DNA of 27,161 bases from a virus, in the IMG/VR virus record IMGVR_UViG_3300037213_000019, positions 1-27,161 of that record; one strand, given 5' to 3'. The notes beneath the pieces are model-generated. The model ran no database searches. It saw nothing but the letters and a program-made list of their open reading frames with translations, and was not told the DNA's origin. A program made the translations under genes and the position numbers. Shown here piece after piece: positions 5,319 through 22,921 of the stretch. Each line of letters begins with the position of its first letter. Within the stretch, counting starts at the first letter, position 1.

Positions 5319-6557
5319 CTATTTAACCACAACTTTCTTGGCCAGAATAGCTTGCAACGTACCTACCTGTGTAGGTGGAGCGTACGGCAAATGTGTATGA
5401 GTAGCAAGCCACTGCACTAACTGTAACCCAAGAGGGGGCGGCTCGGAAGCGTCAGGACCACCTATTTTTGTAAGGGGGGCGTCGATTGTCTTGATCTTAG
5501 CCCAAGTCTCGGTGCTTGAGTCTGCACCAGTGATGGTATGTTCACCTGTGATGGTCTCAGTAACCTTACCGTTCACAGTTACTGAACGGTCTCCAGTTAC
5601 CTGAATGGTCTGGTCACCTCCGACCGTCAAGGAATCATCCTGCTTCACCTCCACCGTACGAGAGCCAGCTTGCATGGAGTAGGAATAGCCATCCTTAGAT
5701 ATCCTAAGTACATAGGCCGGGTCTCCAGAGACTTGGCCACTCATAGGATCTATATTCCCCGGTGCAACCACAACCTCTATGTACGACTTGGCTGCTTTAG
5801 GGTCAGCAGTAGGTTCTGAATCTAATGAACCCACACTCACCTTGATTGAAGCGTTCTTATCCTGAGCAAACTCCCTGGTCAGAAGGGTAAACTCAGTAGG
5901 TGCATTGCCAGAGGGATCTTTCTCGACCGGGTGAACTAACCAAGACAATGAACCAGCAGCTGTGTTGAGTTCGTAGTTCTCACAAAAGTCGCGGATGAAA
6001 TTGGATATGGGAACATAGGCACGTTGGCAAATATTCGTAGACCCTATTTGCAGGACCCCACCCCTCTTTAAGATCAAAAAGTTCTCATCCCTACCCTGTA
6101 TCCATATATCCCCCGGATTCATCACAGGACGTCCAGCACGATAGCTAGCATCAGTGGTCTTCGGTGTAGTCGTGCCACCTGAGTTGGTGGTCTGAGCTGG
6201 AGGCATGTCATCAGGACTCTCTACATCTGGGTCTTGCGCCTCCTGTTTAACGTCCCCAGAGACAGCCCCTGTCACCTCTGGGGCTGTGATGAAACCCATA
6301 ACGAATGGAGACTCCTCATCTGAAGGCCAACATAGAACACAGATTGCCCCTACCTCCGGGCAACATGAGAATCCTTCTCCATTGTTGTAGTGCAAGTACG
6401 GAGACATTACCTGCACACCAGCCATCTGCTTCCCGCTATGCTGTGCAGTCCAATCCACAGTCATGTTTTGCACATTCACGCTTGCGACTACACCTGTCTC
6501 GAACCTGGCAGTCCTGTTACCAGTTCTAGCAGCAGAGTTTCTGAAGGAGGCAGCCAT
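5319..6557 (-). CDS. Baseplate/tail spike protein, gpV/gp5-like OB fold plus beta-helix
   Basis: 412 aa. The start is ATG at 6557, which shares a base with the polymerase stop (TGATG) and has GGAG eight bases upstream; a GTG at 6566 is in frame but less well placed. The N-terminus (about 20-92) fits the OB-fold domain of phage baseplate assembly protein V/T4 gp5: TGVVASVNVQNMTVDW, then PEVGAICVLCWPSDEESPFV. The C-terminal part has short beta-strand repeats (VEVKQDDSLTVGGDQTIQV and TVNGKVTETITGEHTI), typical of the triple beta-helix of membrane-piercing spikes. Near the tip is His387-Thr-His389, matching the HxH iron-binding motif known at the apex of spikes such as P2 gpV. It implies a tail with a puncturing tip, probably contractile. 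Confidence 0.82.
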   Translation of the reverse strand: MAASFRNSAARTGNRTARFETGVVASVNVQNMTVDWTAQHSGKQMAGVQVMSPYLHYNNGEGFSCCPEVGAICVLCWPSDEESPFVMGFITAPEVTGAVSGDVKQEAQDPDVESPDDMPPAQTTNSGGTTTPKTTDASYRAGRPVMNPGDIWIQGRDENFLILKRGGVLQIGSTNICQRAYVPISNFIRDFCENYELNTAAGSLSWLVHPVEKDPSGNAPTEFTLLTREFAQDKNASIKVSVGSLDSEPTADPKAAKSYIEVVVAPGNIDPMSGQVSGDPAYVLRISKDGYSYSMQAGSRTVEVKQDDSLTVGGDQTIQVTGDRSVTVNGKVTETITGEHTITGADSSTETWAKIKTIDAPLTKIGGPDASEPPPLGLQLVQWLATHTHLPYAPPTQVGTLQAILAKKVVVK

Positions 6558-9500
6558 CAGTACCACTCCGGGTGTTCTTTAGGGGGCTTGCCTAACTCGG
6601 CGGCATATACGATCGCCGGGATAGGATGGAGGCTGTGTATGTGACTCTGCCAGCCTTGTTGAGCTGCCTGGATAACAGTCTTTGCCAAATCTTCATGGTT
6701 GAGCTTCGCCATCCAGTCCTCTTGCATATCCATGGGTAGTACGTTTACACCCTTCAGTATGGGCTCGTGAACTATTGGCCGCTCTCCCTTAGCCATATGC
6801 CTATTCAGCGATGATACATATGTAGTCGGAGCAAAGTCACCACGGATAAAGTGTGTAGAAGACCCTGGGTCTTTGATCTTAGTAAGATTGGTAAGAGCCT
6901 TGATCACAATCTCATGGTTGCGTCTGCGAATTCCTTGCCCTTTATACATATTATCTAGATCACTCGCTAGCAAAGCTTGCACTGGCTCCAGCCCGGTCAA
7001 GGGGAGCATCTCATGCGGATTCACACGGCCTTCTGATATAGGCAGCCCTTTTTTGACTTCCGTACCTACTACCAGTGGTTTCTTATCATAGACAGGCAGT
7101 CCTCTAGACTGCGGGATGTAGTGTCGCTCGCCCTCTATGATCACATTGTGACCACCGGCTGTATCCTTTTCAATCTTAGTCACCTTCCCATTCACAGTAC
7201 TCAAAGTAGCAGAACCAGGAAGGTTCTTCGGGAACATGAGTAAGTCTTGTACCTGCTCAAACTGATCAACAAGGGATGATTTAGACGCTGCAGTGCCTCC
7301 GCCATGAAACGCCTTCATGGCGAGCTGTGTTGCACGTTCTCCCAAAGCCTGGCCAGCAAGTACACCTACATTCAAGCCTATCTCTGGAAGGGTACCATTC
7401 TCGGTTAGGCCATGGCACATTGCACATAGCCCTGGGCCATGCAGACAACGAAGCGGAGACCTTACTACCACCTTACCTACATTGTTGTTCCGGAAAGCAC
7501 TCCTGAGTTCTGGTGTGATGAGAGTTCCTGTCTTTACGACCTTACTGCCTAGCTTGATATCTGCGGCCGTATATCGATCTAAGATGTCCTTCTCATCTAT
7601 AGACAGAGCAATACCTTTGTCTGTGCCACAGTCATGATCTAAGATGAGATTGTTCATCGTAGAGTTTATGACCTGCTTAGTGATGTGCCCAGGCTCTTGT
7701 ACTGCTTGTACCTTCTGGATGACCCCCTTACGTCCACCACTAGTAGCTGTCCAATAGCCGGCAATATCAAGACCTTCAGCATAGGACCTACGTACAGGGT
7801 TAGGTAGTATCTCCCCCTTGTGATTGGCCATAAGCATAGGTGCTGTACGTATCTGCCTGATGGTATCTATGCCTCCCTTCATACCCATGTTATGCAGCAA
7901 CATGAGATTGTTGCCCTCTTCAGGTATGGCTTTTAGATGGGCATTCAATTCCTCTGTCGCCTTTGTATAGGCTTCGATAGCTTTAGCATCTCTAGATGGG
8001 CCCGACATTTTAGAAACCAGGGCATCGGCTTTGGCCAAAATTCTATCTCTGGCTTCCCGTTCGGGAGCCAAATCCTTTAGGCCGACAGAGAAGGCAGTCT
8101 GGGTAGCCCACATGTTTCCCAAGTCTTTAAGCTTGTTGATGGACTGCCCATACTCGTTCTTATGCTCCTTCGCAATGCGTGTCATCAGCTCTTCCTGAGC
8201 TGATGAGTTCAATGGATCTTTTGTCTCCAAATACCCCCGACGCATAGCCTCAGGTAGGGCACCAGCCACCATGAACCTGCCTACTGTAGAGTGTATGCCG
8301 CCAACCTTTACTTGATCTGTAAGTTTGACTTCTCCTTTTCTTACCGCAGCTTCTACATCCTGAATCGTAGAGAACTCATGGTTGGTGACAGCTCCTACAC
8401 GTGTAAGACCATACAGACCCAATTTACTTTCGCCAGATGGGCTATACATAATCCGGCCACTGGCGGGGCTGAATAAGTTGTTGGATGGAAACATCTTGTA
8501 GGCTTCAGCAACAGCATCTGAGCCGATAGGTACAAAAGCCCCCATGCAGTCCCAAACTGCAGCACCATTAGCCATAGTAAATGTCCAAGGGCCGGGGACC
8601 TTGAGATCGTACATGGTTTTGATCTCGCCAGTCGCCTTGGATAATACTACTCTATCCCAACCTACGTTTTCATTGAGAGCTAAATTGAACCATTTAGAAA
8701 GATACTCAGAACGTACAGACGTTGCAATCATTCGATCTAAGTTCTGTGTCGTGATTCGTGTTACACCACCACGAGACTGCTTGAGTACGGTATAGCTAGA
8801 AAAAGCTGCTGCATTATGACCGTGCCCATTACGTTTGGCCGCACCCGAATTACGTAAATGTTCCAGCAACTCCTCTTTAACTGCCTCGGGAAGTGGTACT
8901 TTATCTGCCCTGCCATGTGCTATTTTGCTGGAATTTCGCAACTTGGCAAGTGCCACTCTCTTTTCCGTGTGTTCTAGTTTGATCCAGTCAGCATCCTGCA
9001 CAGTACGAATAGAAAATGTAATAACCCAAGATGGTTTGCCGGCGGGAGTATGGGTAGGTGTACAACTTGCCACCAGCCCCAGTGATAGACCAAGAAGTTG
9101 TATACTCTCCATCAAATCTGGGCTAATGGTGCTGTAAGACATAGTAAACTGAGGAGCCCTATTTACACCATTGCTCCAGTTTACAGTACCATCTGTATCA
9201 ATCAAACCACAGAAAAGCCCCTGGCGAAACTCTACAGGGAAATGTAGAAAGCCATCAGGTAGGTGTTTGTTAGCAGCACCCTTTCCGATCAAAGGCTCTA
9301 GCCACAGACCTAATGCTGTAGAATGTACAGAAGACTTGAAAGACTGACACTTGTAATCGCCAAACTTGTGCGGAGCTGAGATATCTCCAGTATGTGCATT
9401 CTGTGCTATGTACTTACCAATGGCATCCCACTTGTCTGCAACATCTCTACCTTCCGCACCATAGGCCAAGTATACTGCTCTGCATTCCGAAGTGGATTCG

Positions 9501-12500
9501 TCTTTCAGCTTTCCTGTAAAACCATAACTAATCCCAGCAGACACCCACCCATCGCCAACAGTCGCACCCAAAAACCAACCTACATCAAATGTAGCTGGTA
9601 CATCCGCCAACATGGCGGTGGCTCTATTACTCTTTGCTGTGGCGCCGGGTAAAGAGGGTATAGGTGCTGGTCCTGAATTCAAGTATCGCAAAGTTGGTAA
9701 CCACATACCTTCAGCACTTGCCGGCACAGCATCATAAACTTCTAAAGTGGCCGGGTTAAGAAGAGCCAGGCTATGATCTTCGGAAACGAACATCTCCCGA
9801 CCACGCTCAGTCTCTATCCTCCATTCTTCGCACGCAGGATGCACAGAGTATTCAGTCACTTCTGACATCTCAAATGCACCATCACTATACGCGGGTACGA
9901 ATGTACCAGGTGGTACCTCGTATACGCTAACACCAGCTCCTGTTGTCCGAATCGGATCAGGCAAGTGCGGGAAGTTTGCAAGGTCTACGATCTTATATGA
10001 GAAGAGTTTTCCAGTGTGTGGCATGCCATCAGCATACTTCTCATCAAGTACCGATGCAAGTAGAATCTCGCCTATGACGCTATCGCCGTCGAAGTCAGCA
10101 TTGTATGAACTTGTAATCAGCGGCTGTACCTGTATTGCCTTACCACTCACAATTCTAGGTTGTAAGCCTTGAATACCGTACTTGTGGAGTACGGGGTCTC
10201 GCTTCAACAAAATGGGCCGGTGAAGAATAACTCTATCCAACGCTCTATCTACTATCTCCCCACCCTCCGCTAACTTCTTTTGTGCCGCCAAAGGTGAAAC
10301 CCCTAATAGGTTTCTTAACTCACGGATTATGAAAGGCTTGTACAACTCTAGTGCCGCAGCTTTAGGTATACCCACCTCATCCAAACTAAGAGATGGTTCC
10401 GGGATGATGGTTCCACGCATAGTCATATCTTGCTTACGTGTAACCAACTGCTCCTGGAAAAAGCCTTCCTTAGGTTGCCCTACCTTAGAGTCGGTACTTG
10501 GATCTATGTGCTTACCTGAGATATAGTCCAATATGCCTCTACGAATTCCGTGAGGGTATCCGCCAAGACCAGACAGAGCACGAAGGCCGTCATACACCTC
10601 TTGTCTCAGTTCTACTTTTGATTGATCGTCTTCCGGTATTAGAGGAGACATCTTTGCGTAACGTGAGGCGGTCAGGTGCAGACCTTTGTACAATCCGTTC
10701 AAATCTTCTTCGCTGATAGTACCATCAGGCAAAACAGATAATGGGCGCATGGATGGTGGCAGCACTGGCACATTCTTCAACATGTATGCATCACGGGCAC
10801 TCAATCCTGCCCTATCCAAGGCACTGAGAAACTTGACCTTCTTATTGGCCGCATCCAGATAACTATCTTTGAGCTTGGGTTTTTGGAGAGCCACAAGAGC
10901 TGCAGCCAAGTCTTTCTTCACATCTATCTTACCGAGCATGGCATCGAACGCTTTGCCACCCAGCAGACATCCCTTCATCTTCTGTGGATTTCCAATATGT
11001 CCTGTGGCAGGGTCATACCCCATAGTTCCTGTAACTAGGCCGTCGAACTGATTTGATTTGAGCCCGGTTAGTTTGGTTATTGCTCCTTCGAACACCGGGT
11101 TAGGGAATGCTTCAGGTAGAACAAAATGCGCCCACTGATTTCCTTCCATTCCGCCTGTGATCTTAGGATCAAATAATCCACCAACCTCCGGGCGCATGGT
11201 CTTAGCAACAGTTAGCTTGGCTGGGTCCTTGAGTTCACCATTGCTCATCTCTTTGACTTGCTTGTCCGTCATGGGTACGAGAGTTAGACTGTTACCAACC
11301 TTCTCTACGTTTACATTCAGACCCTTGATCAAACTAATAAACTTGTTGTACGCGAACGTAGGCTTTGGAGTAGGTAGCATTTCGCCAGCTTGAAGAGCGG
11401 CCCAGAACTGATCTCCTTGACCTGAGTCACTTTTTAGGGTCTGCATCTCTCGTAAATTGGATAGACTTCCATGGGCCAACATAGAGTACAAACCCAACAC
11501 ACCTAGAGATTGGGCACCATGGGGCCCGCCTCCTTTAGGTATCTTATTCTTATCGTAGGCATACCCATACCCCAAAGCTCGAGCACTAAGCTTCTTTTCC
11601 ACCTGGTGGTGAAGCTTTAGGATATGCATAGGGCCTACTAAGACATCCCCCATAGGCCGCCCATTTGCAGGGTCGTAGACTGTCTCCTTATCAGTCAGGC
11701 CGTTCTTCTCAAGGTCTTGTGTTACCTGAGCATGTAAATCTGCCCCCGGCTTGAAGTTCTTAATGAAGTAGGTCTTACCTGTTTTCTCCGCGACCTTAGC
11801 CGCAGCTACCTCTAGCACCTGACCCAGATTGGTTCTACCTGTTACACCTAGCGGATTTAAGATCACATCTAGTGGTCTACCATCCTTGGTGTGTGGAGAT
11901 TCATGATCAGGTATGATCCTAGTTATGATCCCTTTATTGCCATGACGCGCTGTGATCTTATCTCCGATCTCTAGAGGTTCCTCAGTCTTTACGTGAACAG
12001 CAACATTGGTCCCAGTCTTCACTACCTCCTTCACTACTCCTGGATAGTCTTTGTCCCACGTGATACTCGCATCTTTGAATGGACGCACGATTGATTTGTG
12101 TAGCTTGGATAGTTGCACATCCTCGCGCTTCTCCGATTCATTTGAAGCGCGGAGAGCAGCTATGAGAGTATCCCCAGGCATAACCACTGTACCTGGCTTG
12201 ATCACGCCTTCGTCATCCAGCTTCTCAGCCTGAGCTCTGTTCATTCCTGTCGGTATATATGCTTGAAACTTACGCTTATCTAGAACGTGCGCTACATCGC
12301 GTTCTATAGAATGCCTATGAAGATGTTCGGAAGTGAGCTGCTTAGCTGCGCTCTCTGTTACTACAATCCCGTCCTCGTAATTCATGCCTTTGTAGGGCAT
12401 GAATCCAACGCGAAGGTTGGTGCCCATAGCCAAGACTCCCCCACGGGTAAAATTCGAGTCGGCTATTGTCTGCCCAGCCGTAACCTTGTCTCCTACCTTT

Positions 12501-14269
12501 ACTATAGGAGTAGAATGTAGAAATGCTTTGTCCTCGTTCAACGGGAAATTATCGTAAATCTGAACCTCGTGTTTCTTACCATATGTGTCTTTGATTACTA
12601 CTGCATCCGGTTTGATCTGAGTAACAGTACCATCAACACGGCTATGGTGACTGGCAAAGCCACCAATCATATGATCGAAGCTATGTGCACCAGCCAGACT
12701 TTGTACTAGAGGTACTTCTCTGTGCAGTAGAGAGACAGCCTGCTCCATTTGTCTTCCGGCCATAGTACTTCTGTTCGGGTGGTCAGCCGGCATAAACGGA
12801 ATCATGTTTGATGCAAACGAGAACATCTGCATCGGGTCTCTCATCACATAATCGGCACCTTTCATAGAGCCGTCATAAATTTCATTCTCCAAGCCACTGA
12901 TTTTGATTGAGGGCCCTATGGGTACAGGTTTACCATCCACCCACCTCACTTGATCTGGAAGAACAACGTGAGACTTGTAAGCAACGGTAGGATTTACATC
13001 CTCGTTTTTGCCAGTGTGTAGGTTGTACATCTTTATGGAGACGTCATGACCTTTCTTTTGTACACCCACAGGCAAACGCAACACTATACCCGTGCTCGAA
13101 CCTTCCGGGGTTTCTATTGGGTCCAAGAAACCCAAGTGAGACGGATCAATTAGTTTTGCCTCATCCGACACAATATGTTCATCTCTAATACCGCCCTTAC
13201 CCATGATGGTGGTCTTGAACTGGGCTGAGATCATTTCGAGGGGGTTAATCTGACTAGGTACCGAAGCTAATGAGTTCTTGGAGAACATCTGGCGTATGTG
13301 CCGATTGAATGTATCGGGGGCTATGATGTCTCTAACCTTATCTCTCTTATCTACCGTGTTGCCAATCTTGCGTAAGATATCACGAGAGCCCTGCGTGATA
13401 CGTTCTGCTGCAAAATCCTCCATTGAATGGAGGTCTTTGAACATTAGGGCGTCCCTAGGATCTGACTTGGCCTCTCCACGAGATATCTTGAGTAGCTTGT
13501 CTGAAGCATCCAATAGCGTGGCGCCAGTTACATTGGGGTGTGCCTTGCCTAACGTAAGCATGTTGACATCAGGACTCAGCTTGGTGTCGTCCATGACTTG
13601 CCAAAAATGCGCACGCATATCTTCCGGAGTCATGGTGGCTGCAGGCTTGAGACCTGTATCAGCCTTGTAAAACTTGGACAATGCCTTCGGCATATCTGAG
13701 TGATTGGCTACTGCTATGTCCTTACCCCACCGCTTCTCTACCTCTTCTTCCGGCACTCCCATAGCATGCAGTAGGGGTTTCAAAGGTATGTTAGAGTTGC
13801 CATACCCCATAGAGAACTCACGAGTGGCCGGGTCAAAGTGAATCTTGAACCCTCCACCAAGAGCATTGAAGTGAGACTCCAATGCACCGTCAGCCTTGAT
13901 CATATTGTATACGCCAGGCTTCAACCGCCACTGGTTATCTACTTGGTACTCCTGTCCATCCACAATGTGGCTATAGCGATTAGTAAGTTTAGGCAGGTTC
14001 ATCAACCTGATCTTTTGCCTGTCGAGCACTTTACCAGTAGCATTGTCCTTTAAGGATATCGTGGCTTCTACTGGTACTGTCCATGATTTACCTTCAAGCT
14101 TAGCCACTTTCTGTGACCTGATATCGGGACTGTCCAGGTCATCCCTAACAGCTATATCATGGAGCTCTAGCGTGTTCTTCTTCCCTGCTACCGGGAAGAG
14201 ACCACTGACTGCCTTTTGTACTCGGTCTTTGAGGAGATCAAACCCCTCTTCCGGGTCAAGACGTGCCAA
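6557..14269 (-). CDS. Single-chain fused beta/beta-prime DNA-directed RNA polymerase, interrupted by an intein
   Basis: 2570 aa; about 2059 aa after removal of a 511-aa intein. The start is TTG at 14269, six bases after AGGAG. Beta landmarks: LPKLTNRYSHIVDG (92-105), FLDPIETPEG (381-390), MPYKGMNYEDG (624-634), IGDKITARHGNKG (768-780), LNPLGVTGRTNLGQVLE (804-820). Beta-prime landmarks: GLFDPKITGG (1031-1040), VPVLPPSMRPL (1167-1177) with clamp-helix-like residues after it, VQPLITSSYNADFDGD (1381-1396, catalytic aspartates 1392, 1394, 1396), a bridge-helix stretch beginning GMKGGIDTIRQIR, a Cys set (HDCGT, RCLHG, GLCAMC), trigger loop GERATQLAMKAFHGGG, and a C-terminal RNHEIVIKALTNL. This is a full two-barrel polymerase. 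The N-terminal beta-prime zinc ribbon appears deleted. Its stop overlaps the spike start. It may be a late or virion enzyme. Confidence 0.96.
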   Translation of the reverse strand: MARLDPEEGFDLLKDRVQKAVSGLFPVAGKKNTLELHDIAVRDDLDSPDIRSQKVAKLEGKSWTVPVEATISLKDNATGKVLDRQKIRLMNLPKLTNRYSHIVDGQEYQVDNQWRLKPGVYNMIKADGALESHFNALGGGFKIHFDPATREFSMGYGNSNIPLKPLLHAMGVPEEEVEKRWGKDIAVANHSDMPKALSKFYKADTGLKPAATMTPEDMRAHFWQVMDDTKLSPDVNMLTLGKAHPNVTGATLLDASDKLLKISRGEAKSDPRDALMFKDLHSMEDFAAERITQGSRDILRKIGNTVDKRDKVRDIIAPDTFNRHIRQMFSKNSLASVPSQINPLEMISAQFKTTIMGKGGIRDEHIVSDEAKLIDPSHLGFLDPIETPEGSSTGIVLRLPVGVQKKGHDVSIKMYNLHTGKNEDVNPTVAYKSHVVLPDQVRWVDGKPVPIGPSIKISGLENEIYDGSMKGADYVMRDPMQMFSFASNMIPFMPADHPNRSTMAGRQMEQAVSLLHREVPLVQSLAGAHSFDHMIGGFASHHSRVDGTVTQIKPDAVVIKDTYGKKHEVQIYDNFPLNEDKAFLHSTPIVKVGDKVTAGQTIADSNFTRGGVLAMGTNLRVGFMPYKGMNYEDGIVVTESAAKQLTSEHLHRHSIERDVAHVLDKRKFQAYIPTGMNRAQAEKLDDEGVIKPGTVVMPGDTLIAALRASNESEKREDVQLSKLHKSIVRPFKDASITWDKDYPGVVKEVVKTGTNVAVHVKTEEPLEIGDKITARHGNKGIITRIIPDHESPHTKDGRPLDVILNPLGVTGRTNLGQVLEVAAAKVAEKTGKTYFIKNFKPGADLHAQVTQDLEKNGLTDKETVYDPANGRPMGDVLVGPMHILKLHHQVEKKLSARALGYGYAYDKNKIPKGGGPHGAQSLGVLGLYSMLAHGSLSNLREMQTLKSDSGQGDQFWAALQAGEMLPTPKPTFAYNKFISLIKGLNVNVEKVGNSLTLVPMTDKQVKEMSNGELKDPAKLTVAKTMRPEVGGLFDPKITGGMEGNQWAHFVLPEAFPNPVFEGAITKLTGLKSNQFDGLVTGTMGYDPATGHIGNPQKMKGCLLGGKAFDAMLGKIDVKKDLAAALVALQKPKLKDSYLDAANKKVKFLSALDRAGLSARDAYMLKNVPVLPPSMRPLSVLPDGTISEEDLNGLYKGLHLTASRYAKMSPLIPEDDQSKVELRQEVYDGLRALSGLGGYPHGIRRGILDYISGKHIDPSTDSKVGQPKEGFFQEQLVTRKQDMTMRGTIIPEPSLSLDEVGIPKAAALELYKPFIIRELRNLLGVSPLAAQKKLAEGGEIVDRALDRVILHRPILLKRDPVLHKYGIQGLQPRIVSGKAIQVQPLITSSYNADFDGDSVIGEILLASVLDEKYADGMPHTGKLFSYKIVDLANFPHLPDPIRTTGAGVSVYEVPPGTFVPAYSDGAFEMSEVTEYSVHPACEEWRIETERGREMFVSEDHSLALLNPATLEVYDAVPASAEGMWLPTLRYLNSGPAPIPSLPGATAKSNRATAMLADVPATFDVGWFLGATVGDGWVSAGISYGFTGKLKDESTSECRAVYLAYGAEGRDVADKWDAIGKYIAQNAHTGDISAPHKFGDYKCQSFKSSVHSTALGLWLEPLIGKGAANKHLPDGFLHFPVEFRQGLFCGLIDTDGTVNWSNGVNRAPQFTMSYSTISPDLMESIQLLGLSLGLVASCTPTHTPAGKPSWVITFSIRTVQDADWIKLEHTEKRVALAKLRNSSKIAHGRADKVPLPEAVKEELLEHLRNSGAAKRNGHGHNAAAFSSYTVLKQSRGGVTRITTQNLDRMIATSVRSEYLSKWFNLALNENVGWDRVVLSKATGEIKTMYDLKVPGPWTFTMANGAAVWDCMGAFVPIGSDAVAEAYKMFPSNNLFSPASGRIMYSPSGESKLGLYGLTRVGAVTNHEFSTIQDVEAAVRKGEVKLTDQVKVGGIHSTVGRFMVAGALPEAMRRGYLETKDPLNSSAQEELMTRIAKEHKNEYGQSINKLKDLGNMWATQTAFSVGLKDLAPEREARDRILAKADALVSKMSGPSRDAKAIEAYTKATEELNAHLKAIPEEGNNLMLLHNMGMKGGIDTIRQIRTAPMLMANHKGEILPNPVRRSYAEGLDIAGYWTATSGGRKGVIQKVQAVQEPGHITKQVINSTMNNLILDHDCGTDKGIALSIDEKDILDRYTAADIKLGSKVVKTGTLITPELRSAFRNNNVGKVVVRSPLRCLHGPGLCAMCHGLTENGTLPEIGLNVGVLAGQALGERATQLAMKAFHGGGTAASKSSLVDQFEQVQDLLMFPKNLPGSATLSTVNGKVTKIEKDTAGGHNVIIEGERHYIPQSRGLPVYDKKPLVVGTEVKKGLPISEGRVNPHEMLPLTGLEPVQALLASDLDNMYKGQGIRRRNHEIVIKALTNLTKIKDPGSSTHFIRGDFAPTTYVSSLNRHMAKGERPIVHEPILKGVNVLPMDMQEDWMAKLNHEDLAKTVIQAAQQGWQSHIHSLHPIPAIVYAAELGKPPKEHPEWY
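8549..10081 (-). mobile_element. Intein with LAGLIDADG endonuclease in the RNAP catalytic motif
   Basis: Residues 1397-1907 (511 aa) of the polymerase. Alignment with beta-prime sequence knowledge (NADFDGD followed by a hydrophobic VPI/VPL strand) fixes the exteins as NADFDGD and CMGAFVPIG, so the intein starts at Ser1397 and ends at Asp1907, before Cys1908. Block B is VSEDHSLAL (1495-1503). Endonuclease motifs are GWFLGATVGDGW (1564-1575, Asp1573) and GLFCGLIDTDG (1684-1694, Asp1693), both with intact acidic residues. The C-terminal block is YDLKVPGPWTFTMANG, then AAVWD. The usual His-Asn end is replaced by Trp-Asp, and the first residue is Ser rather than Cys. Asp-ending inteins are known and can splice. 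The host gene is inactive unless it splices. Confidence 0.92.
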
Positions 14270-14335
14270 GAGTATCTCCTATGCGTGTGTTGATGCTTAC
14301 TAGACTACCAGAACATGTGCTTATTGAGCATGAAA

Positions 14336-14365
14336 TTGTAAGTCAAAAAGCGACATAAGGATAGT
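14336..14365 (+). promoter_or_regulatory. Weak candidate promoter for the rightward small-gene island
   Basis: TTGTAA (14336-14341) and GATAGT (14360-14365) are separated by 18 bp, the same spacing as the two better promoters in this window. Each hexamer matches sigma70 in only 4 of 6 positions. On the opposite strand the 170 bp before the polymerase TTG contain a TTGACT but no convincing partner -10, so no promoter can be assigned to the polymerase itself. Confidence 0.25.
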
Positions 14366-14443
14366 GCAGAGGGAATGAACTTCGCCTCTGTCCTGTGCCA
14401 TAGCTTGGTACAGTTTACAACCCCTAAGTACAGGCGGTTTGAA

Positions 14444-14587
14444 ATGCCCGAGGCCGACACCCACCAAGAAGATAAAGACAAGAATGCTATGGGAGATTTC
14501 GAGGATGCCGTCATGTCTGAGATCGAAAGTCATAAAGATCAAGATGAGGAAGTAACGAAACTGGATTCAAAGCAGGATAAAAGCTGA
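14444..14587 (+). CDS. Small highly charged protein, 47 aa
   Basis: Read from ATG 14444, with AGGCGG six bases upstream, it encodes MPEADTHQEDKDKN and a further acidic, lysine-containing helix up to TGA at 14587. An in-frame ATG at 14375 would add 23 residues, but its purine-rich sequence touches the start codon. The protein is almost devoid of hydrophobic residues and is probably a flexible or helical peptide. Short charged proteins next to a polymerase could be regulators or inhibitors, but nothing in the sequence proves this. It is the first gene of a rightward island between two leftward genes, so it faces away from the polymerase promoter region. Confidence 0.5.
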   Translation: MPEADTHQEDKDKNAMGDFEDAVMSEIESHKDQDEEVTKLDSKQDKS

Positions 14588-14614
14588 ATGATCTGGCACT
14601 TTGTTTTCAGCTTT
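14580..14614 (+). terminator. 9-bp inverted repeat at the end of the 47-aa gene
   Basis: AAAGCTGAA (14580-14588) and TTCAGCTTT (14606-14614) are exact complements across a 17-nt loop, and the left arm includes the TGA stop. The right arm ends in CTTT rather than a T-run, so termination would be weak; an mRNA 3'-end structure is equally possible. Confidence 0.35.
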
Positions 14615-14657
14615 CTGGTAGCATACATGACAACACTAATGATCCCTAGCAGACAAC

Positions 14658-15161
14658 ATGCACGCACCACTAATCGTCAGACCGAGCTTTGTATGTAGCC
14701 TTTGCTCGGCTCCTATGGAAAGTGATGATCCAGAAGAGCCTACTGAACCAGGGGGGACAGAGCTAGTAGTGATTGAAAACGGTAAGATATTACCTATGCA
14801 CAAAGATCCGAATTTCTTTGTGTTCCACTCTTGGGTAGATGTACCTCCAGGCGAATTACCAGAAGGTATAAACGTAGAGGTATCAATCTGGCATCGAGAA
14901 TGTTTCGATAACGTCTACAACGAAGTAGATGACAGTGAACATGCTATTAGCACAAGACATTGTGCTATGTGTGATCAAGACTTCGATGATAATCCATATG
15001 GCAACCAGATCACATTGGGCAGAATTGATCTAGAAGAGGAAGTGTTCATGGAGGATGGATCTGCTACGCCAATGAAATTATGCAGGCTCTGTCTGCATAA
15101 AGTATTAGGAGAAGGAGACTCCGAAGAAGGAGCTGCCTTACTTCAAAACAGCCTGTTGTAA
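14658..15161 (+). CDS. Cys-rich acidic protein, putative zinc-binding, 167 aa
   Basis: I do not recognise the family. Metal-ligand candidates are Cys13-x2-Cys16 near the N-terminus (FVCSLCSAP), His-x3-Cys in IWHRECF, CAMC in the middle (HCAMCDQDF) and CRLC near the C-terminus (KLCRLCLHKVL). This pattern would suit two zinc sites in a small treble-clef or zinc-ribbon protein. The rest is acidic. ATG at 14658 has only a poor AGCAGA upstream; the N-terminal CxxC supports this start. It lies in a rightward island between the portal and polymerase genes and is followed at 15176 by a strong hairpin. A role in nucleic-acid or protein binding is plausible but unproven. Confidence 0.7.
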   Translation: MHAPLIVRPSFVCSLCSAPMESDDPEEPTEPGGTELVVIENGKILPMHKDPNFFVFHSWVDVPPGELPEGINVEVSIWHRECFDNVYNEVDDSEHAISTRHCAMCDQDFDDNPYGNQITLGRIDLEEEVFMEDGSATPMKLCRLCLHKVLGEGDSEEGAALLQNSLL

Positions 15162-15175
15162 TCAGTATGAAGACG

Positions 15176-15202
15176 AGGCAGCCCACAGAAGGTGGGCTGC
15201 CT
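15176..15202 (+). terminator. Strong 11-bp hairpin between two rightward genes
   Basis: Arms AGGCAGCCCAC (15176-15186) and GTGGGCTGCCT (15192-15202) pair perfectly around AGAAG. It sits 14 bp after the stop at 15161 and about 23 bp before the AGGAGG of the next gene. No T-run follows, so either a terminator not relying on U-tracts, a transcript-processing site, or an mRNA structure setting expression of the next gene. Confidence 0.5.
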
Positions 15203-15236
15203 ATCGCTCCTACTCAAACTAGAAAGGAGGAACAAA

Positions 15237-15653
15237 TTGCCAAAGTACCATGGAATCATTGATCCCACAGTGCCAGAAGTCACATGGGAGAATTTCCAGC
15301 AAATATGCCTGTTGGTTGTAGATGAACCAATAAACTTCTACCTGGAGCTACAGAAAGGAAAATATGGTATGCGGCCAATCTATGAGCCCCAGGGGCATAC
15401 AAATCACCCACCCAAGCTAGTCTGGTGGTTCCCAAAGTTCATAGCTGCAGGATTCGTAGAGAGATACAAAGCAAATACTCCCTCCGTTGATCCTAACTGG
15501 CCAGATGAGTTGGCAGCCGAAATCTACGCGGAATGCAAGCCTTTCCAAGATCATAGAGAACGGCAAGAAGTTGCACTACACGCGCAGCAAACTGCCAGAT
15601 GGGAGTTCCTGGTGGCGAATGGGCTGGTAATGAAAGCACCAACTAAACCATAG
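15237..15653 (+). CDS. Hypothetical protein, 138 aa, TTG start
   Basis: The start is TTG at 15237, exactly six bases after AGGAGG; an upstream in-frame GTG at 15192 lies in the hairpin and lacks a ribosome site. The protein (MPKYHGIIDPTVPEVTWENF onward) contains many aromatic and Pro residues in its first half, a Trp-rich segment KLVWWFPKFIAAGFVERYK, and a charged helical C-terminus. No Cys cluster, membrane segment or known motif is seen. Its TAG stop overlaps the portal stop by 11 bp tail-to-tail, so transcripts from the two strands collide here. Function unknown. Confidence 0.72.
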   Translation: MPKYHGIIDPTVPEVTWENFQQICLLVVDEPINFYLELQKGKYGMRPIYEPQGHTNHPPKLVWWFPKFIAAGFVERYKANTPSVDPNWPDELAAEIYAECKPFQDHRERQEVALHAQQTARWEFLVANGLVMKAPTKP

Positions 15654-18600
15654 CTGCCTCAGGTCCGCGCTGTGGAGGTCTCTGCTTTGGCAGAGCTCTC
15701 GCAGAAGCGGCTGAGGCAGCTGTGGGTCCGTTTGCTCCACTCATCATTAGACCAACAACTGTATCGTGAAGCTCTGGACTACGTTCTTGGAGCCGTCTGA
15801 GTGTTACTGGTTTCTCCGCAGGAGTGAGTCTTGAAATCCTGTCCGCCAACTGTCTTGCTACGTACAACAAATCCACATTCATTCCACCCGCGATATCTGA
15901 ATTGGTGGCTGAAGCTGGATGCTGTTGGATGCTACTCATAGTAAGTGGAGATGAAATCTCTTTTGGAGGTGAGATCAAAGCTGGATTTCTTGGAGTAGGT
16001 GTTAGGTCTGGGGACTTCTGTGGAGCCGGCTGTCCCGTCTGTGCAGCTGCCTGGTCTTGCATCATCCCGTTCTGCATCTCTGACTGGAAAGCCATCTGCT
16101 CTTTGGCTGCTTCCGTCTGTATTGCAGCTTGCTCTACCATGGCTTTGGCCTGAGCCTTGTTCTGCCACTTTGCTGTGACAAGCATGGCCTCCCCCTCCAT
16201 CTCCGCCTGTAGCAATCTCTGCTTCTTCATCGCAGCTACACGGCGAGAAGCCTCCATCTCCATGATCTTATCTTCTTTAGCCGAGTCGTAGTCAGCATCA
16301 GCCATAAGAGACTCGTCAGACATCTTGCCAGCTTGGTTGAGCTGGAAGAGATATGCCTTCCTCTGTAAATCATCCGCCATCTTGAATGGCTTGAACCTTG
16401 CCCCTACCTTGGGCCAACTCAGGTAAGAGGCTGTCCTATCAATCACCCATCGCAAGAGGGACAACTGATCTGACAGGTAACCCAGGAACATGTTCTCTAA
16501 CATTCTCAATGACACATTGCTTCCACTATAACTCAAGCCGCCAAAAATGAGCTCATTGGGTACTCCCATGCCAGCAACAATGTGCTCAGACCATACCCTG
16601 ATTTCTTGGCTCAAGAGTAGAGCCCTACCATCACCACCTATGGTCTCTTGGCCAATAGGCAGTGGAAGAATAGGTATGTAGTTGTTATCGCTATTGTGGG
16701 TTGCAACACCCCAAGTACAGAAGGTACTGTCACCGTCCATCTGGAAAGCCACGACAGTATCGGCCTCTACTTTTGCTACCTCTTCAATTCGGAACCAGGC
16801 AAAGCCCTCTCTAAATAGACCTATCCTACTGAATGTTGATCCAGAGTATGTTTCACCCGCCAGTATGGCAGACAATTGTTTATGTGAGTCTCCAGACACC
16901 TGTACTAAGTAGCAACCATGACCCTTAGTCTTTTTACCGCAAATCGTAACGTCCTGTCCCTCTACAAAAGAGATGCCCGGCATTACCTGCCAAGAAAGCA
17001 TCAGTTGCCGGGTATCTTCTGCCAGCTGCCTGCTAGAGACGCCAAGCACTGTCTTGTCTTCGTAGTAAGACCCATCTCCATCCAGCACTCCATTCACCGC
17101 AGCCACAGCTATGTCATCTGTGGCATGTCTGATCACATCCGGTAAACGCTTGTTTATGGCAGTGCCTGGTATCAGTGAATGGAAAAATTGAGCAGCCACT
17201 ATGCTAGGATAAGCAATTTGAATCCCATTTTCAGATTTCTCTCCACCAGTTTTAGAAGCACCAAAACGAGAGGCAAAAAATCTATCCAGCTTATCCACAA
17301 ACGCTGTTTCATCTTTGTGGAGAGAGAAAAACACACCCTTAACTGTAGTATTACCCTCAGCGGCATATAGACCAAGGACCCACGCCAATTCTTGATCTAG
17401 GTTCAAGTATCTAGGCACTCTTCTGAGAGTGCGCCCTTCTCTTATTGCAGCTTGTGCACACTTGTAGGAATTCAGACCCCACCCATGCTCCTCAAGCAAC
17501 TCGTTACGAGAAGAGACCTCCCCATGCGCAGACAAGTACTCAAAAATAGCCGGTACGTCTATATCAGTATGGTCTATATAAACCCACTCCTCTGTGACAG
17601 CTCTGTCTACATACTCCGCTAGATCAAGTTTTTCTACCTCGTTGATCAACCGAACTGTTGGATAACCTACGTAATCTCCAGGAGTTAGCTCTGAGACTGG
17701 AATGAAATCTGCAGAGCCAAGCTTGTGCCCATTCCCATTATTTATCTTTTTGGCAGCCCATATAGGGTGCTCTTCAGAATAGACAGTGTCTATGGCATGC
17801 TGACCGCGTACCTTGAGTCTGTACGCAGACTCACCATCATCCATTTGACGCTCATGACGCTTAGTCACTGTCTCAAATATACCGTACCTGTTCTTCAGTT
17901 GATCTCCAACACCAACATCACCAGCTCTTTGTAGACCATTTATAGTCTCCACGAAGGAGTCAGGAGTCACACAACGCCACCTACGTAGCTCACCTGCAAT
18001 CTGATCATGCCAGTCTTGTAGGTTCACGGTTGTATACGGATCACTGGTCGCTGATCCGGCTTGTGGGAACAGCATTCTGAGTGGGACGATGTGCTCGAGC
18101 GCTATTGCCTCTTGCGCTTTGCGTAAAACTTGCAAATAAAAAGTGTCCTTCAGGACCGGCAAGATCAAGGGGGTGCCCCAACCTCTATCTTTGCCGGCAA
18201 GGGTAGGCCGCTTGAAGTGGTAGATGTTGTCCCTGCTGAACACGACAGCCTTTCTCAAGCGAAGGGCATCGATGAACAGTTGGGGCACACTCTCTACCGC
18301 TGATTTTTTGCCTATTATGATATCGTTCTTCAACTGCACTGGGATCGAATAGTAGTACTCATACTCCCCACAGATATCGTTGTATCGAATGTCAATGTCT
18401 TCAGGGTTCCATCTCAAGAGCCTGATACCCTTAGGCGCCTTGATGTAATGGTCCCTGACCTTGGCTATGCCCGCATGATCGCACTGCTCGCACTGCCAGT
18501 GGAACTCGAAATTCATGAACCGGTAGATGGCATCTGATGCCTGCTTCTCAAAACCACATCGAGTGCAACGAAGCATCTTTACAAACGGATAGAAGATGCT

Positions 18601-19920
18601 GACAAGGCTGTTACCGTAGCAATTACCCGTCAGTACACCATCTTCTATTGCAAAAGTGTGCGTTTCTGGTTCTACACAACAAAACACTTCTTCCACCCTG
18701 TTTGTAGATACGACCTTCTTTACCTTTACGCACTTACCATATTCTGTAGGTACAAAACAGCTTAGGAATCTTTGTTTTTGATCCGGTCTGATAAAATCCT
18801 GTTCCCTCATAAATTGTGTAAAGAGGGACAAATAATTCATAGGCTCTTGCTGTTTGGTGAAACTGTTCCAAGCCCAGTGCTCCCGTACCTGACCACCACA
18901 TAGCCCCAACCAAGGTAACCTCTCCGAGATGGCACAAAGAACATTGGGATCTTTTTGAGTCAGTATGACTTGCCCACGATTATCCACAGAGCCATCTGTA
19001 GACAGCAAGCCACATGTAAATCCATACCAGTAAGAGGCTGAAGAAGACTCTGGCAACTGCTTATAGGCGGGAGATTGCCCATACACACCAAGGTATTTAT
19101 CCTCGTGATGTGGAGTGATCGTAGCATACCCCTCAAAGTACCTGGCTAAGTACCTCTTCTCCGCTGTGTAGAGTATGACATGTGCTTGTTTCCCCTCGTT
19201 TGACAGCGTTCCATCGCCAAACACTATGCCGTGTCTAACACCTTCCCAGAATAGATCATTTTGAGGTGGTCTGTCTGCAACCACTCTAGGTACAGACTTA
19301 CCTGCCAACCTGTCCGTCGTTCTCTTTACAATGGATGAGGAGGTAACTCCGGAAGGCTGCTTGCTCCAAGTTTTAACCGGCCACTCGTGCTCTTTAGTAG
19401 CGTATATAGTGCCTTGCCCAGTGTGTACCTCCCACAGCTGCTGAAAACCGTGAGATTTGAAAGTAGCAGGTCTGTATACCCCACCCTGTGACAAGACATC
19501 TACAGTTTTCCCCGCCAAATTCTTGATGGGGAATACCCCATCTCTGGTGATGACACGTGTAGTACCAGCAAGACAGAAATAATCAAGACCAATTTCGATC
19601 TGAAAAGGACGATACCTTAGCTGCTCATTGAGGAAACTGCTCCAGCTCTCCTTTAAGTCTTGCTTTTCAGTATCGAGAATGATGTCTGTGATGGGGTAAT
19701 CTGCCATCTTGGAGACCACTGCATTGATCAATGGATTCACCAAGAAGTAGTACCGGCACCACCGGAACATCTGCTTGACCGTTGCCGGCAAATAGGTCTG
19801 TCCGATATCGAAGAAGGGGCTAGGGTATTGCAGACCGTAATCTGCAGAGCTACCAGTACGCCCTCTAGTTCTAGCGAAGCGGAGGGCAGAGGAGTCCCCA
19901 TCACCACCTAAGCCACTCAT
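15643..19920 (-). CDS. Portal protein precursor with two inteins
   Basis: 1425 aa; about 680 aa after two inteins (116-433, 650-1076) are removed. The portal dodecamer forms the DNA gate at the head vertex and docks the terminase. Start ATG 19920 follows GGGGAG by six bases and overlaps the previous stop (ATGA). Extein features: FRWCRYYFLVNPLINAVVS (52-70), a zinc-ribbon-like pair Cys452-x2-Cys455 and Cys477-x2-Cys480, YHFKRPTLAGKDRGWGTP (567-584), ALEHIVPLRMLFPQ (607-620), and after the second intein a conserved-looking GMGVPNELIFGGLSYSGSN. Then comes a Gln/Ala/Met-rich coiled-coil region and a Pro-rich tail. The stop overlaps the 138-aa gene. The call rests on these features and on the neighbourhood; it resembles large myophage portals. 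Confidence 0.85.
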   Translation of the reverse strand: MSGLGGDGDSSALRFARTRGRTGSSADYGLQYPSPFFDIGQTYLPATVKQMFRWCRYYFLVNPLINAVVSKMADYPITDIILDTEKQDLKESWSSFLNEQLRYRPFQIEIGLDYFCLAGTTRVITRDGVFPIKNLAGKTVDVLSQGGVYRPATFKSHGFQQLWEVHTGQGTIYATKEHEWPVKTWSKQPSGVTSSSIVKRTTDRLAGKSVPRVVADRPPQNDLFWEGVRHGIVFGDGTLSNEGKQAHVILYTAEKRYLARYFEGYATITPHHEDKYLGVYGQSPAYKQLPESSSASYWYGFTCGLLSTDGSVDNRGQVILTQKDPNVLCAISERLPWLGLCGGQVREHWAWNSFTKQQEPMNYLSLFTQFMREQDFIRPDQKQRFLSCFVPTEYGKCVKVKKVVSTNRVEEVFCCVEPETHTFAIEDGVLTGNCYGNSLVSIFYPFVKMLRCTRCGFEKQASDAIYRFMNFEFHWQCEQCDHAGIAKVRDHYIKAPKGIRLLRWNPEDIDIRYNDICGEYEYYYSIPVQLKNDIIIGKKSAVESVPQLFIDALRLRKAVVFSRDNIYHFKRPTLAGKDRGWGTPLILPVLKDTFYLQVLRKAQEAIALEHIVPLRMLFPQAGSATSDPYTTVNLQDWHDQIAGELRRWRCVTPDSFVETINGLQRAGDVGVGDQLKNRYGIFETVTKRHERQMDDGESAYRLKVRGQHAIDTVYSEEHPIWAAKKINNGNGHKLGSADFIPVSELTPGDYVGYPTVRLINEVEKLDLAEYVDRAVTEEWVYIDHTDIDVPAIFEYLSAHGEVSSRNELLEEHGWGLNSYKCAQAAIREGRTLRRVPRYLNLDQELAWVLGLYAAEGNTTVKGVFFSLHKDETAFVDKLDRFFASRFGASKTGGEKSENGIQIAYPSIVAAQFFHSLIPGTAINKRLPDVIRHATDDIAVAAVNGVLDGDGSYYEDKTVLGVSSRQLAEDTRQLMLSWQVMPGISFVEGQDVTICGKKTKGHGCYLVQVSGDSHKQLSAILAGETYSGSTFSRIGLFREGFAWFRIEEVAKVEADTVVAFQMDGDSTFCTWGVATHNSDNNYIPILPLPIGQETIGGDGRALLLSQEIRVWSEHIVAGMGVPNELIFGGLSYSGSNVSLRMLENMFLGYLSDQLSLLRWVIDRTASYLSWPKVGARFKPFKMADDLQRKAYLFQLNQAGKMSDESLMADADYDSAKEDKIMEMEASRRVAAMKKQRLLQAEMEGEAMLVTAKWQNKAQAKAMVEQAAIQTEAAKEQMAFQSEMQNGMMQDQAAAQTGQPAPQKSPDLTPTPRNPALISPPKEISSPLTMSSIQQHPASATNSDIAGGMNVDLLYVARQLADRISRLTPAEKPVTLRRLQERSPELHDTVVGLMMSGANGPTAASAASARALPKQRPPQRGPEAAMV
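16693..17973 (-). mobile_element. Portal intein 2 (427 aa, LAGLIDADG)
   Basis: Residues 650-1076. It begins at Cys650 after RRW-R, in block A CVTPDSFVETINGLQRAGDV. Block B is VYSEEHPIWA (713-722). Endonuclease motifs are LGLYAAEG (849-856, Glu855 in the acidic position) and NGVLDGDGS (943-951, Asp949). It ends TWGVATHN, with canonical His1075-Asn1076, followed by Ser1077. Removing it joins GELRRWR to SDNNYIPILP in the portal. All standard residues for splicing and homing are present, so it looks functional. Confidence 0.93.
18622..19575 (-). mobile_element. Portal intein 1 (318 aa, LAGLIDADG)
   Basis: Residues 116-433. It starts CLAGTTRVITRDGVFPIKNL (Cys116), with block B YATKEHEWPV (173-182). 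Endonuclease motifs are HGIVFGDGTL (230-239, Asp236) and CGLLSTDGS (303-311, Asp309). It ends ETHTFAIEDGVLTGN, then Cys434. The penultimate residue is Gly432 rather than His, an atypical block G found in some inteins. Splicing joins GLDYF to CYGNSLVSIF. It is short for an intein carrying an endonuclease. Confidence 0.92.
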
Positions 19921-21640: not shown

Positions 21641-22921
21641 TTAGCCAACAGTCCTAGAAGGTCCTGATGGTCCAGAGACTCCCGATGGGCCAGATGGACC
21701 AGATGGTCCTGAGACTCCTGATGGCCCAGAGACTCCCGAAGGACCAGAAACTCCTGATGGACCAGATGGACCGGAAGGACCTGTGGCACCACCCAACTCT
21801 GCGCTCAACGACCCTGTCCGCACGCCATTAGACACGACACTAATGGCAACCACATCTCCAGTAACACGTGGTGCCGTAGCCGGTATGTTCACTTTTATTT
21901 CTGTGTCAGTCCACGCTGCCGCACCTGCTGTACCAGTTGTGTTGAAAGGCACAGATGCAACACCAGCTACAGTCACCAGATTCTTCTCGTAAACTCCTAC
22001 ACCACCAGTAAACGGAGTAGTTGGTACCGCAGTGGTGAGTGCGCCAGTACCTGGGCTAGATGCTGTTGCTCTGATGATACCTGTCCACGTATGCGAGTTA
22101 GCATTGATCGATGTAGCTACTTCATTAGCAGTACTTCCACCCGTGACCGCAACATCAGCCGTACCACCCAACTGGATAGTCAGAAGCTTCGTCTCTACGA
22201 AGGACGTTGCTTCTACTGGCTGCCACACCACATCAAGACCGGCGGGATCAATACCAACACCAGTGCCAATGGCAGCAGCAATGATTCCGTAGCAAGAAGA
22301 TGTAGGGTCGATGTATGCTGCATTGATAGCAGCAACAAGATCTGCAACAGTACTGCCACCGTCAGCATAACGAATACCAAGACGATTGGCAACAGTATCA
22401 AATGTGATCTTGAGGGAACCACCAATTACCGAAGCTTTGATCTGCGCCTCAAGACCCACATTTGCTGGGTTTGCAGCTGTTAGTACAAGCTTTGATGCAC
22501 CCACTGTAAAAGTGAGTGTTCTTGTATCTGTATACGTAGCTGTAGGTGTTGCGGAACCGGCTGCAGGTGTACCTGGAGATGGGCCCGACAGTGGCGGCGG
22601 CAATACACACACATTGAGCTTGCTAACTCCTGGAGTCAAAGCAGTCAATGTCAGTGTGTCAGCAGTAAAGATCAATGCCGCACTATCAAACTTCTGCCCC
22701 TGTAGCAGATTTCTTCCAAACAGAGTCAACAAACCACCAGCGGGAAGGGGGTCATTACCCAACATAGCATCAAGCTCAGGGAATCCAACTCGTCCTTCCA
22801 AGTTTTCGAACCCCAGTTCTACATCACCCCGAAGGTCTGCAATTTCTCCCGGCAAACCTGTCTTACCCTTAGCTACCGAGTGCGGAATCTTTGCTCTTGC
22901 GAAACCGAATGATTGCGACAT
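21641..22921 (-). CDS. Virion protein with C-terminal collagen-like Gly-X-Y tail, 426 aa
   Basis: ATG at 22921 follows AAGGAGAACAAC, a strong site. After an N-terminal region of about 60 residues comes a Thr/Val/Gly-rich, beta-strand-like body with few charges. A segment near 340-375 (WTDTEIKVNIPATAPRVTGD, then AISVVSNGVRTGS) resembles an IPT/TIG-type Ig-like domain end. The last 49 residues begin with 15 Gly-X-Y triplets (378-422), mostly GPS with some GVS, then RTVG. Collagen-like stretches in phages form trimeric triple helices in fibres or on the head. Here the triplets are at the very end, with no trimerisation domain after them. A fibre, decoration or surface-exposed role is likely but unproven. 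Confidence 0.83.
   Translation of the reverse strand: MSQSFGFARAKIPHSVAKGKTGLPGEIADLRGDVELGFENLEGRVGFPELDAMLGNDPLPAGGLLTLFGRNLLQGQKFDSAALIFTADTLTLTALTPGVSKLNVCVLPPPLSGPSPGTPAAGSATPTATYTDTRTLTFTVGASKLVLTAANPANVGLEAQIKASVIGGSLKITFDTVANRLGIRYADGGSTVADLVAAINAAYIDPTSSCYGIIAAAIGTGVGIDPAGLDVVWQPVEATSFVETKLLTIQLGGTADVAVTGGSTANEVATSINANSHTWTGIIRATASSPGTGALTTAVPTTPFTGGVGVYEKNLVTVAGVASVPFNTTGTAGAAAWTDTEIKVNIPATAPRVTGDVVAISVVSNGVRTGSLSAELGGATGPSGPSGPSGVSGPSGVSGPSGVSGPSGPSGPSGVSGPSGPSRTVG
21656..21790 (-). repeat. Gly-X-Y collagen-like tandem repeat
   Basis: Fifteen consecutive triplets (GAT, then GPS and GVS) encoded by degenerate 9-bp and 18-bp units, for example TCCAGATGG-like words on the plus strand. 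Such arrays expand and contract easily, so repeat number may differ between isolates. Confidence 0.9.

Follow-up and report, generated by a model that had tools for sequence, protein, structure and literature searches.

The portal gene of a bacterial virus very probably carries two unrelated and complete inteins, which would both splice themselves out of the protein precursor and spread by homing. It lies in a virus contig of 27,161 bases (the window). Judged by comparison with related records, its portal family is an intein hotspot that has been invaded repeatedly and holds up to three inteins at once.

The interrupted portal gene

The gene is a minus-strand open reading frame that remains open throughout its 1425 codons (Table 1). 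The original prediction had placed it at the correct coordinates and had left the strand unstated. Its count of 745 intein residues (318 and 427) in a 1425-residue precursor is exact and leaves 680 extein residues, and the two inteins do occupy different extein sites, with boundaries that could be set at the sites termed a and d. A chance or misread reading frame was ruled out by the precision of the junctions, which are found again in other records.

Table 1. Features of the portal and polymerase genes in the window, followed by the insertion sites of the portal family. Site positions are residues of the spliced window portal; ^ marks a junction.
Feature	Position	Strand	Ends or junction	Evidence or remark
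Portal protein precursor, 1425 aa (680 aa spliced)	15643..19920	-		ORF, relatives, fold of intein-free homologue, Arash synteny
N-extein, portal residues 1-115	19576..19920	-		extein alignment with relatives
Intein 1 (site a), 318 aa, aa 116-433	18622..19575	-	CLAGTTRV...VLTGN^C	LAGLIDADG motifs GIVFGDG and GLLSTDG
Middle extein, spliced portal residues 116-331	17974..18621	-		extein alignment with relatives
Intein 2 (site d), 427 aa, aa 650-1076	16693..17973	-	CVTPDSFV...VATHN^S	LAGLIDADG motifs GLYAAEG and GVLDGDG
C-extein, spliced portal residues 332-680, stop codon included	15643..16692	-		extein alignment with relatives
Empty site e	16527..16528	-	GLSY^SGSNV	509-aa intein there in contig 3300014494_000182
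Fused beta-beta' RNA polymerase, 2570-aa precursor (2059 aa after intein removal), single ORF	6557..14269	-
RNA polymerase intein, 511 aa, aa 1397-1907	8549..10081	-	NADFDGD^...D^CMGAF	LAGLIDADG match; relatives
Site f	~54		FRW^C
Site a	115			intein 1 in window
Site b	286		KAQE^S
Site c	311		SDPY^T/S
Site d	331		RRWR^S	intein 2 in window
Site d'	333		RWRAD^S
Site e	386		GLSY^S

A tblastn search with the joined extein returned one continuous segment in intein-free relatives and three segments in the window. Uninterrupted homologues of the joined 680-residue portal are present in IMG/VR at 95% (L002, L003) and 93% identity (L004), with many more at 70-85%, and in L002-L004 the extein alignment has no gap at either junction. 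Altogether 79 uninterrupted portals were recovered, none with a portal reading frame longer than 900 residues. The comparison of relatives that the original prediction had proposed is thereby decided for both sites: neither segment occurs in the 79 portals and the junctions close without gaps, which rules out that homologous portals carry them as structural domains. The segments are in-frame insertions missing from homologous host proteins, as is typical of class 1 inteins.

The residues of this class (Cys or Ser at position 1, T/SxxH in block B, a terminal Asn or Gln, and Cys, Ser or Thr at position +1) are found in both. Intein 1 has Cys1, T60 and H63 invariant in its family, a terminal Asn and a +1 Cys; intein 2 has Cys1, the invariant pair S66 and H69 with Ser replacing Thr, a terminal His-Asn and a +1 Ser. 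The family alignments of both inteins conserve Cys1, the T/S..H of block B, block F and an Asn or Gln at the end. The splicing blocks are complete, as had been predicted, with the qualification that intein 1 ends in Gly-Asn instead of the canonical His-Asn. This absence of His weighs against splicing of intein 1 and is family-wide (G, S or K in 22/22 site-a portal inteins); in known inteins a penultimate His is not a strict requirement.

Members of the intein families match Pfam Intein_splicing, Hint_2 and LAGLIDADG_3 (PF14528). The Hint splicing fold is indicated for intein 1 by the match of its family profile to DnaE inteins (E 4e-7) and for intein 2 by its predicted structure (pLDDT 92.4, 16 sequences in the alignment), whose best Foldseek match is the TliVMA intein 7qsu (E 1.5e-19), with PI-SceI matched as well. 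The family profile of intein 2 matches PI-PkoII, archaeal V-ATPase inteins and PI-SceI at E 8e-14 and weaker. The solved inteins TliVMA, PI-PkoII and PI-SceI share with intein 2 a splicing domain and a LAGLIDADG endonuclease fold, but are 10-15% identical to it in sequence and reside in other host proteins at other sites. Two LAGLIDADG motifs, each with its catalytic acidic residue, are present in both window inteins, as in homing endonucleases of this type. The two inteins are unrelated and complete, and each apparently joins a splicing domain to an intact LAGLIDADG homing endonuclease. For intein 2 the comparison with record L095 (dN 0.095, dS 1.65, dN/dS about 0.06, approximate as dS is near saturation) points to strong purifying selection and to nothing finer.

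The best PHROGs portal match of the precursor is weak (phrog_2833, E 0.0084), which means that intein-bearing portals escape profile searches. L003, a homologue free of inteins, was modeled with AlphaFold from an alignment of 59 sequences (pLDDT 69 overall and about 90 over residues 90-250), and the model has the portal fold, which is made up of wing, stem, clip and tunnel helix. The 310 residues that it matches in the lambda portal (VIA) give Z 18.8, and all structure matches listed for it are portal or neck/connector structures. The window also holds a partial terL (1-1353, minus strand) and a baseplate-like gene (5319-6566) as head gene context. In Salmonella phage Arash an annotated portal of 579 residues, 32% identical, is followed by one small gene and then by an RNA polymerase (RNAP) gene; in the window, too, the portal is followed downstream by the RNAP gene, which has the same orientation. 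Arash and the Vibrio phages D69, D181 and D148 all have a portal homologue (32-33%) adjoining an RNAP gene of the multi-subunit type. Unlike that of the window, the Arash portal has no intein, and the D181 portal frame is apparently uninterrupted too. The predicted fold and the synteny with Arash support the original assignment of the product as a phage portal protein.

Two observations concern other proteins or parts of proteins. Four cysteines in a CxxC...CxxC arrangement are invariant in the 59 aligned portals (L003 residues 132, 135, 157 and 160) and also occur in the window extein, suggesting a metal-binding ribbon inside the portal family. The minus-strand gene at 21641-22921 of the window encodes a 426-residue protein with C-terminal collagen-like GPSGVSGPSG repeats, whose Pfam Collagen match (E 1.9e-5) falls below the cut-off.

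Insertion sites and intein lineages in the portal family

Scans with intein alignments, together with an intein-neutral query from the C-terminal part of the portal, gave about seven insertion positions between residues 54 and 386, all within the first 57% of the protein. In the modeled fold, sites b to e would flank the clip and stem helices. Single-intein portals occur in many records, and 22 distinct portal inteins were found at site a. Two inteins are combined as a+d in the window, as c+e in L104-106 and L176/177, and as f+a in L138. Three at once are found as a+d+e in L094/L099, as b+c+d in L095 and L096, and as b+c+e in L173/L175, where the reading frame reaches 2064 residues. With the intein-neutral query, and with records resembling the same phage joined, portal inteins were present in 6/14 phages, a small sample. 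In one record (L110:3927-5331) a portal with a site-b intein is broken into two reading frames within the intein, by a frameshift, a stop or a sequencing error.

The inteins of sites b, c, d and d' form one family. In its tree, which has an outgroup of two rows only, the alleles of each site are one group, and the four site changes are the minimum, a value as low as this being reached in 0/200 shuffles. With the site-e intein this family shares no more than a partial LAGLIDADG similarity. Site-a inteins belong to a separate family, which they have in common with ribonucleotide reductase (RNR) inteins. The RNR inteins of L085, L087, L091, L097 and Thermobifida phage P318 share the family of intein 1, Cys1, the block F motif EEVFCC and Cys+1; the one of P318 is its nearest named relative (37%). 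They differ in their host protein, many of them end in Gln, and the 22 site-a portal alleles group apart from them (support 93/87). A scan of genome contigs with intein 1 returned one RNR intein and one fragment. A further reading frame of 1936 residues (L122:453), which is not a portal, contains three intein-like segments with junction contexts resembling ribonucleotide reductases.

In the site-a alleles of L086, L088, L139 and L142 the endonuclease residues are degenerate or lost and the splice ends are intact, and the d' intein of L115 is a mini-intein of 280 residues. Such alleles are what a homing cycle would be expected to leave as its inteins decay.

Proposed homing between alleles and alternative explanations

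The residue that follows the insertion fits the chemistry of a splice site. A +1 Cys is present at 22/22 occupied a sites and at 23/77 empty ones (p 7e-10), a +1 Ser at 8/8 occupied b sites compared with Ser or Thr at 14/79 empty ones (p 5e-6), and a +1 Ser at 3/3 occupied d sites compared with Ser or Thr at 11/79 empty ones (p 0.004); as related sequences are not independent, all three p values are optimistic. The residue at empty sites is often Ala, Tyr, Met, Leu or Val, and at occupied sites it is always a nucleophile. An incoming intein must therefore bring the +1 codon along or land on a permissive allele. In several pairs of records the site-a inteins are also more similar to each other than their exteins (62 vs 47%, 41 vs 25%).

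Three contigs serve as an example. Over about 7 kb, beginning 3.8 kb upstream of the portal and including all of intein d, contig 3300014494_000182 (L099) has 2 mismatches to the window. Eleven bp after intein d the near-identity drops abruptly to 78-93% DNA identity; a start of this divergence at site e was ruled out by the base-level comparison. A record from the same sample, L111, carries no intein at site d, and its +1 codon there is GCA (Ala). Past intein d on the right, L099 continues with AGCGATAACAA like the window (11 bp, including the Ser codon AGC) and is then identical to L111 for 106 bp, where L111 ends. This looks like homing into an allele of the L111 type, with a short right-hand conversion tract that changed the +1 Ala to Ser; on the left, either a long tract or a crossover would be needed. 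The evidence consists of metagenome contigs and of 106 bp of recipient-type sequence right of the junction. A chimeric assembly of this one contig would equally give a near-exact match to the window over about 7 kb followed by divergence. We consider a chimera unlikely, though to be reckoned with, because only 11 bp past the intein are shared at the mosaic junction and the contig with the empty site has no intein d, so that joining through common k-mers is improbable. A further trace of homing may lie between the window and L095, where the longest identical extein run (29 nt) begins exactly at the site-d boundary. This is suggestive only; the synonymous distance between the two d inteins is near saturation, and a transfer, if there was one, would be old.

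We infer that the precursor splices itself twice. Cys1 would form a thioester, the chain would be transferred to the +1 nucleophile (Cys at site a, Ser at site d), and Asn cyclization and extein ligation would then leave a 680-residue portal able to assemble. During co-infection each intein endonuclease would cut intein-free portal alleles, and repair would copy the intein and, along with it, a short flank that includes the required +1 nucleophile codon.

Splicing inteins could also be kept as a timing switch, with portal assembly awaiting a cue such as a shift in redox state sensed by the catalytic cysteines. Conditional splicing is described for other inteins, as for M. smegmatis DnaB (PMC6195587), the dodecamer would probably not form from unspliced portals, and the splicing and endonuclease regions are both conserved. 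Neither intein, however, is found in very close relatives, sites and combinations vary, and most inteins have kept their endonuclease motifs, which is the pattern of a mobile element and not of a conserved switch; we regard this explanation as improbable. It is still harder to believe that the segments are structural or enzymatic domains retained in a portal of 1425 residues that does not splice. The reading frame is indeed open from end to end, but the 79 homologous portals do without the segments, which break up the conserved core of the portal, begin and end exactly as canonical inteins do and are followed by a +1 nucleophile at every occupied site. That the whole intein-bearing frame is an assembly artefact can practically be dismissed: all sequences are metagenome contigs, but two independent records, L095 and L096, have site-d inteins with identical boundaries, and many records have an intein at site a.

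The DNA around the sites offers a lead. In the close group formed by the window, L111, L003, L033 and L004, divergence at sites a-e exceeds the background of the gene, even in pairs of sequences that both lack the intein (2/379 in a circular-shift test on all substitutions, 0/379 on synonymous codons). The same shift test did not replicate this in the other groups (89/379, 43/379 and 261/379). This site-centered and mostly synonymous divergence, seen in the group of five sequences only, is a lead and not a claim. Pooled flank divergence of occupied versus empty sites gave a weak signal that carries no claim: values this low came up in 63, 43, 459 and 196 out of 1000 shuffles at sites a, b, c and d, respectively. 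We offer tentatively, with somewhat more doubt than conviction, the picture of an ongoing intein battleground in the portal gene of RNAP-carrying phages: one lineage would have radiated within the gene to the neighboring sites b, c, d and d', inteins would reside together, homing would have been captured among strains that live in the same community, and earlier invasions would have left short stretches of raised synonymous divergence around sites that are now empty.

The polymerase intein and comparison with known systems

As the original prediction had stated, a third intein lies in the polymerase gene, giving three within 12 kb in two genes (8549-19575, a span of 11 kb), and the visible part of terL is free of inteins, its phrog_675 match being contiguous over residues 69-440. 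At the polymerase site 46/47 relatives are continuous (ADFDGD[TAQ]M). The ends of this intein are atypical: Ser stands at its N-terminus and Asp, before Cys+1, at its C-terminus. In relatives, reading frames of the RNAP region contain additional LAGLIDADG segments (L033:6077, 2911 aa; L006:13473, 2853 aa; L173:8115). From these frames the polymerase gene looks like an intein hotspot as well.

Inteins in portal proteins have been reported before, in six cases from one cluster, the C1 mycobacteriophages (Kelley et al. 2016, PMC5050341). These resemble the window family in having an intein within a phage portal protein, and differ from it in that the accessible text of that paper contains no double or triple portal inteins; the same text describes TerL as a multi-site hotspot of splicing-competent, endonuclease-active inteins. 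In our search of 'phages' with intein 1 and intein 2, no mycobacteriophage was among the matches listed. One crAss-like phage has two TerL inteins (PMC7886860). For multi-intein portals the literature search, whose coverage excluded most subscription journals, found no earlier paper; as far as it shows, portal inteins were known before and a multi-site, triple-intein portal is unreported.

The haloarchaeal MCM helicase has inteins at four neighboring sites (Turgeman-Grott et al. 2023, PMC10643990). Its gene, too, is essential and has several sites close to one another, at which inteins co-occur and are often gained and lost, and the +1 residue is important; with a wrong residue there, splicing is reported to be blocked while the endonuclease still recognizes the site (PMC10643990). 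MCM is encoded on an archaeal chromosome and is not a phage structural gene, and homing was measured in MCM, whereas for the portal it is inferred. The portal family is a phage counterpart of the multi-intein MCM: one essential structural gene with about seven sites, many natural empty and occupied alleles, and up to three inteins combined. It makes directly testable the mutual interference of neighboring inteins in homing, how inteins supply their own +1 nucleophile, and whether their endonucleases attack co-infecting phages.
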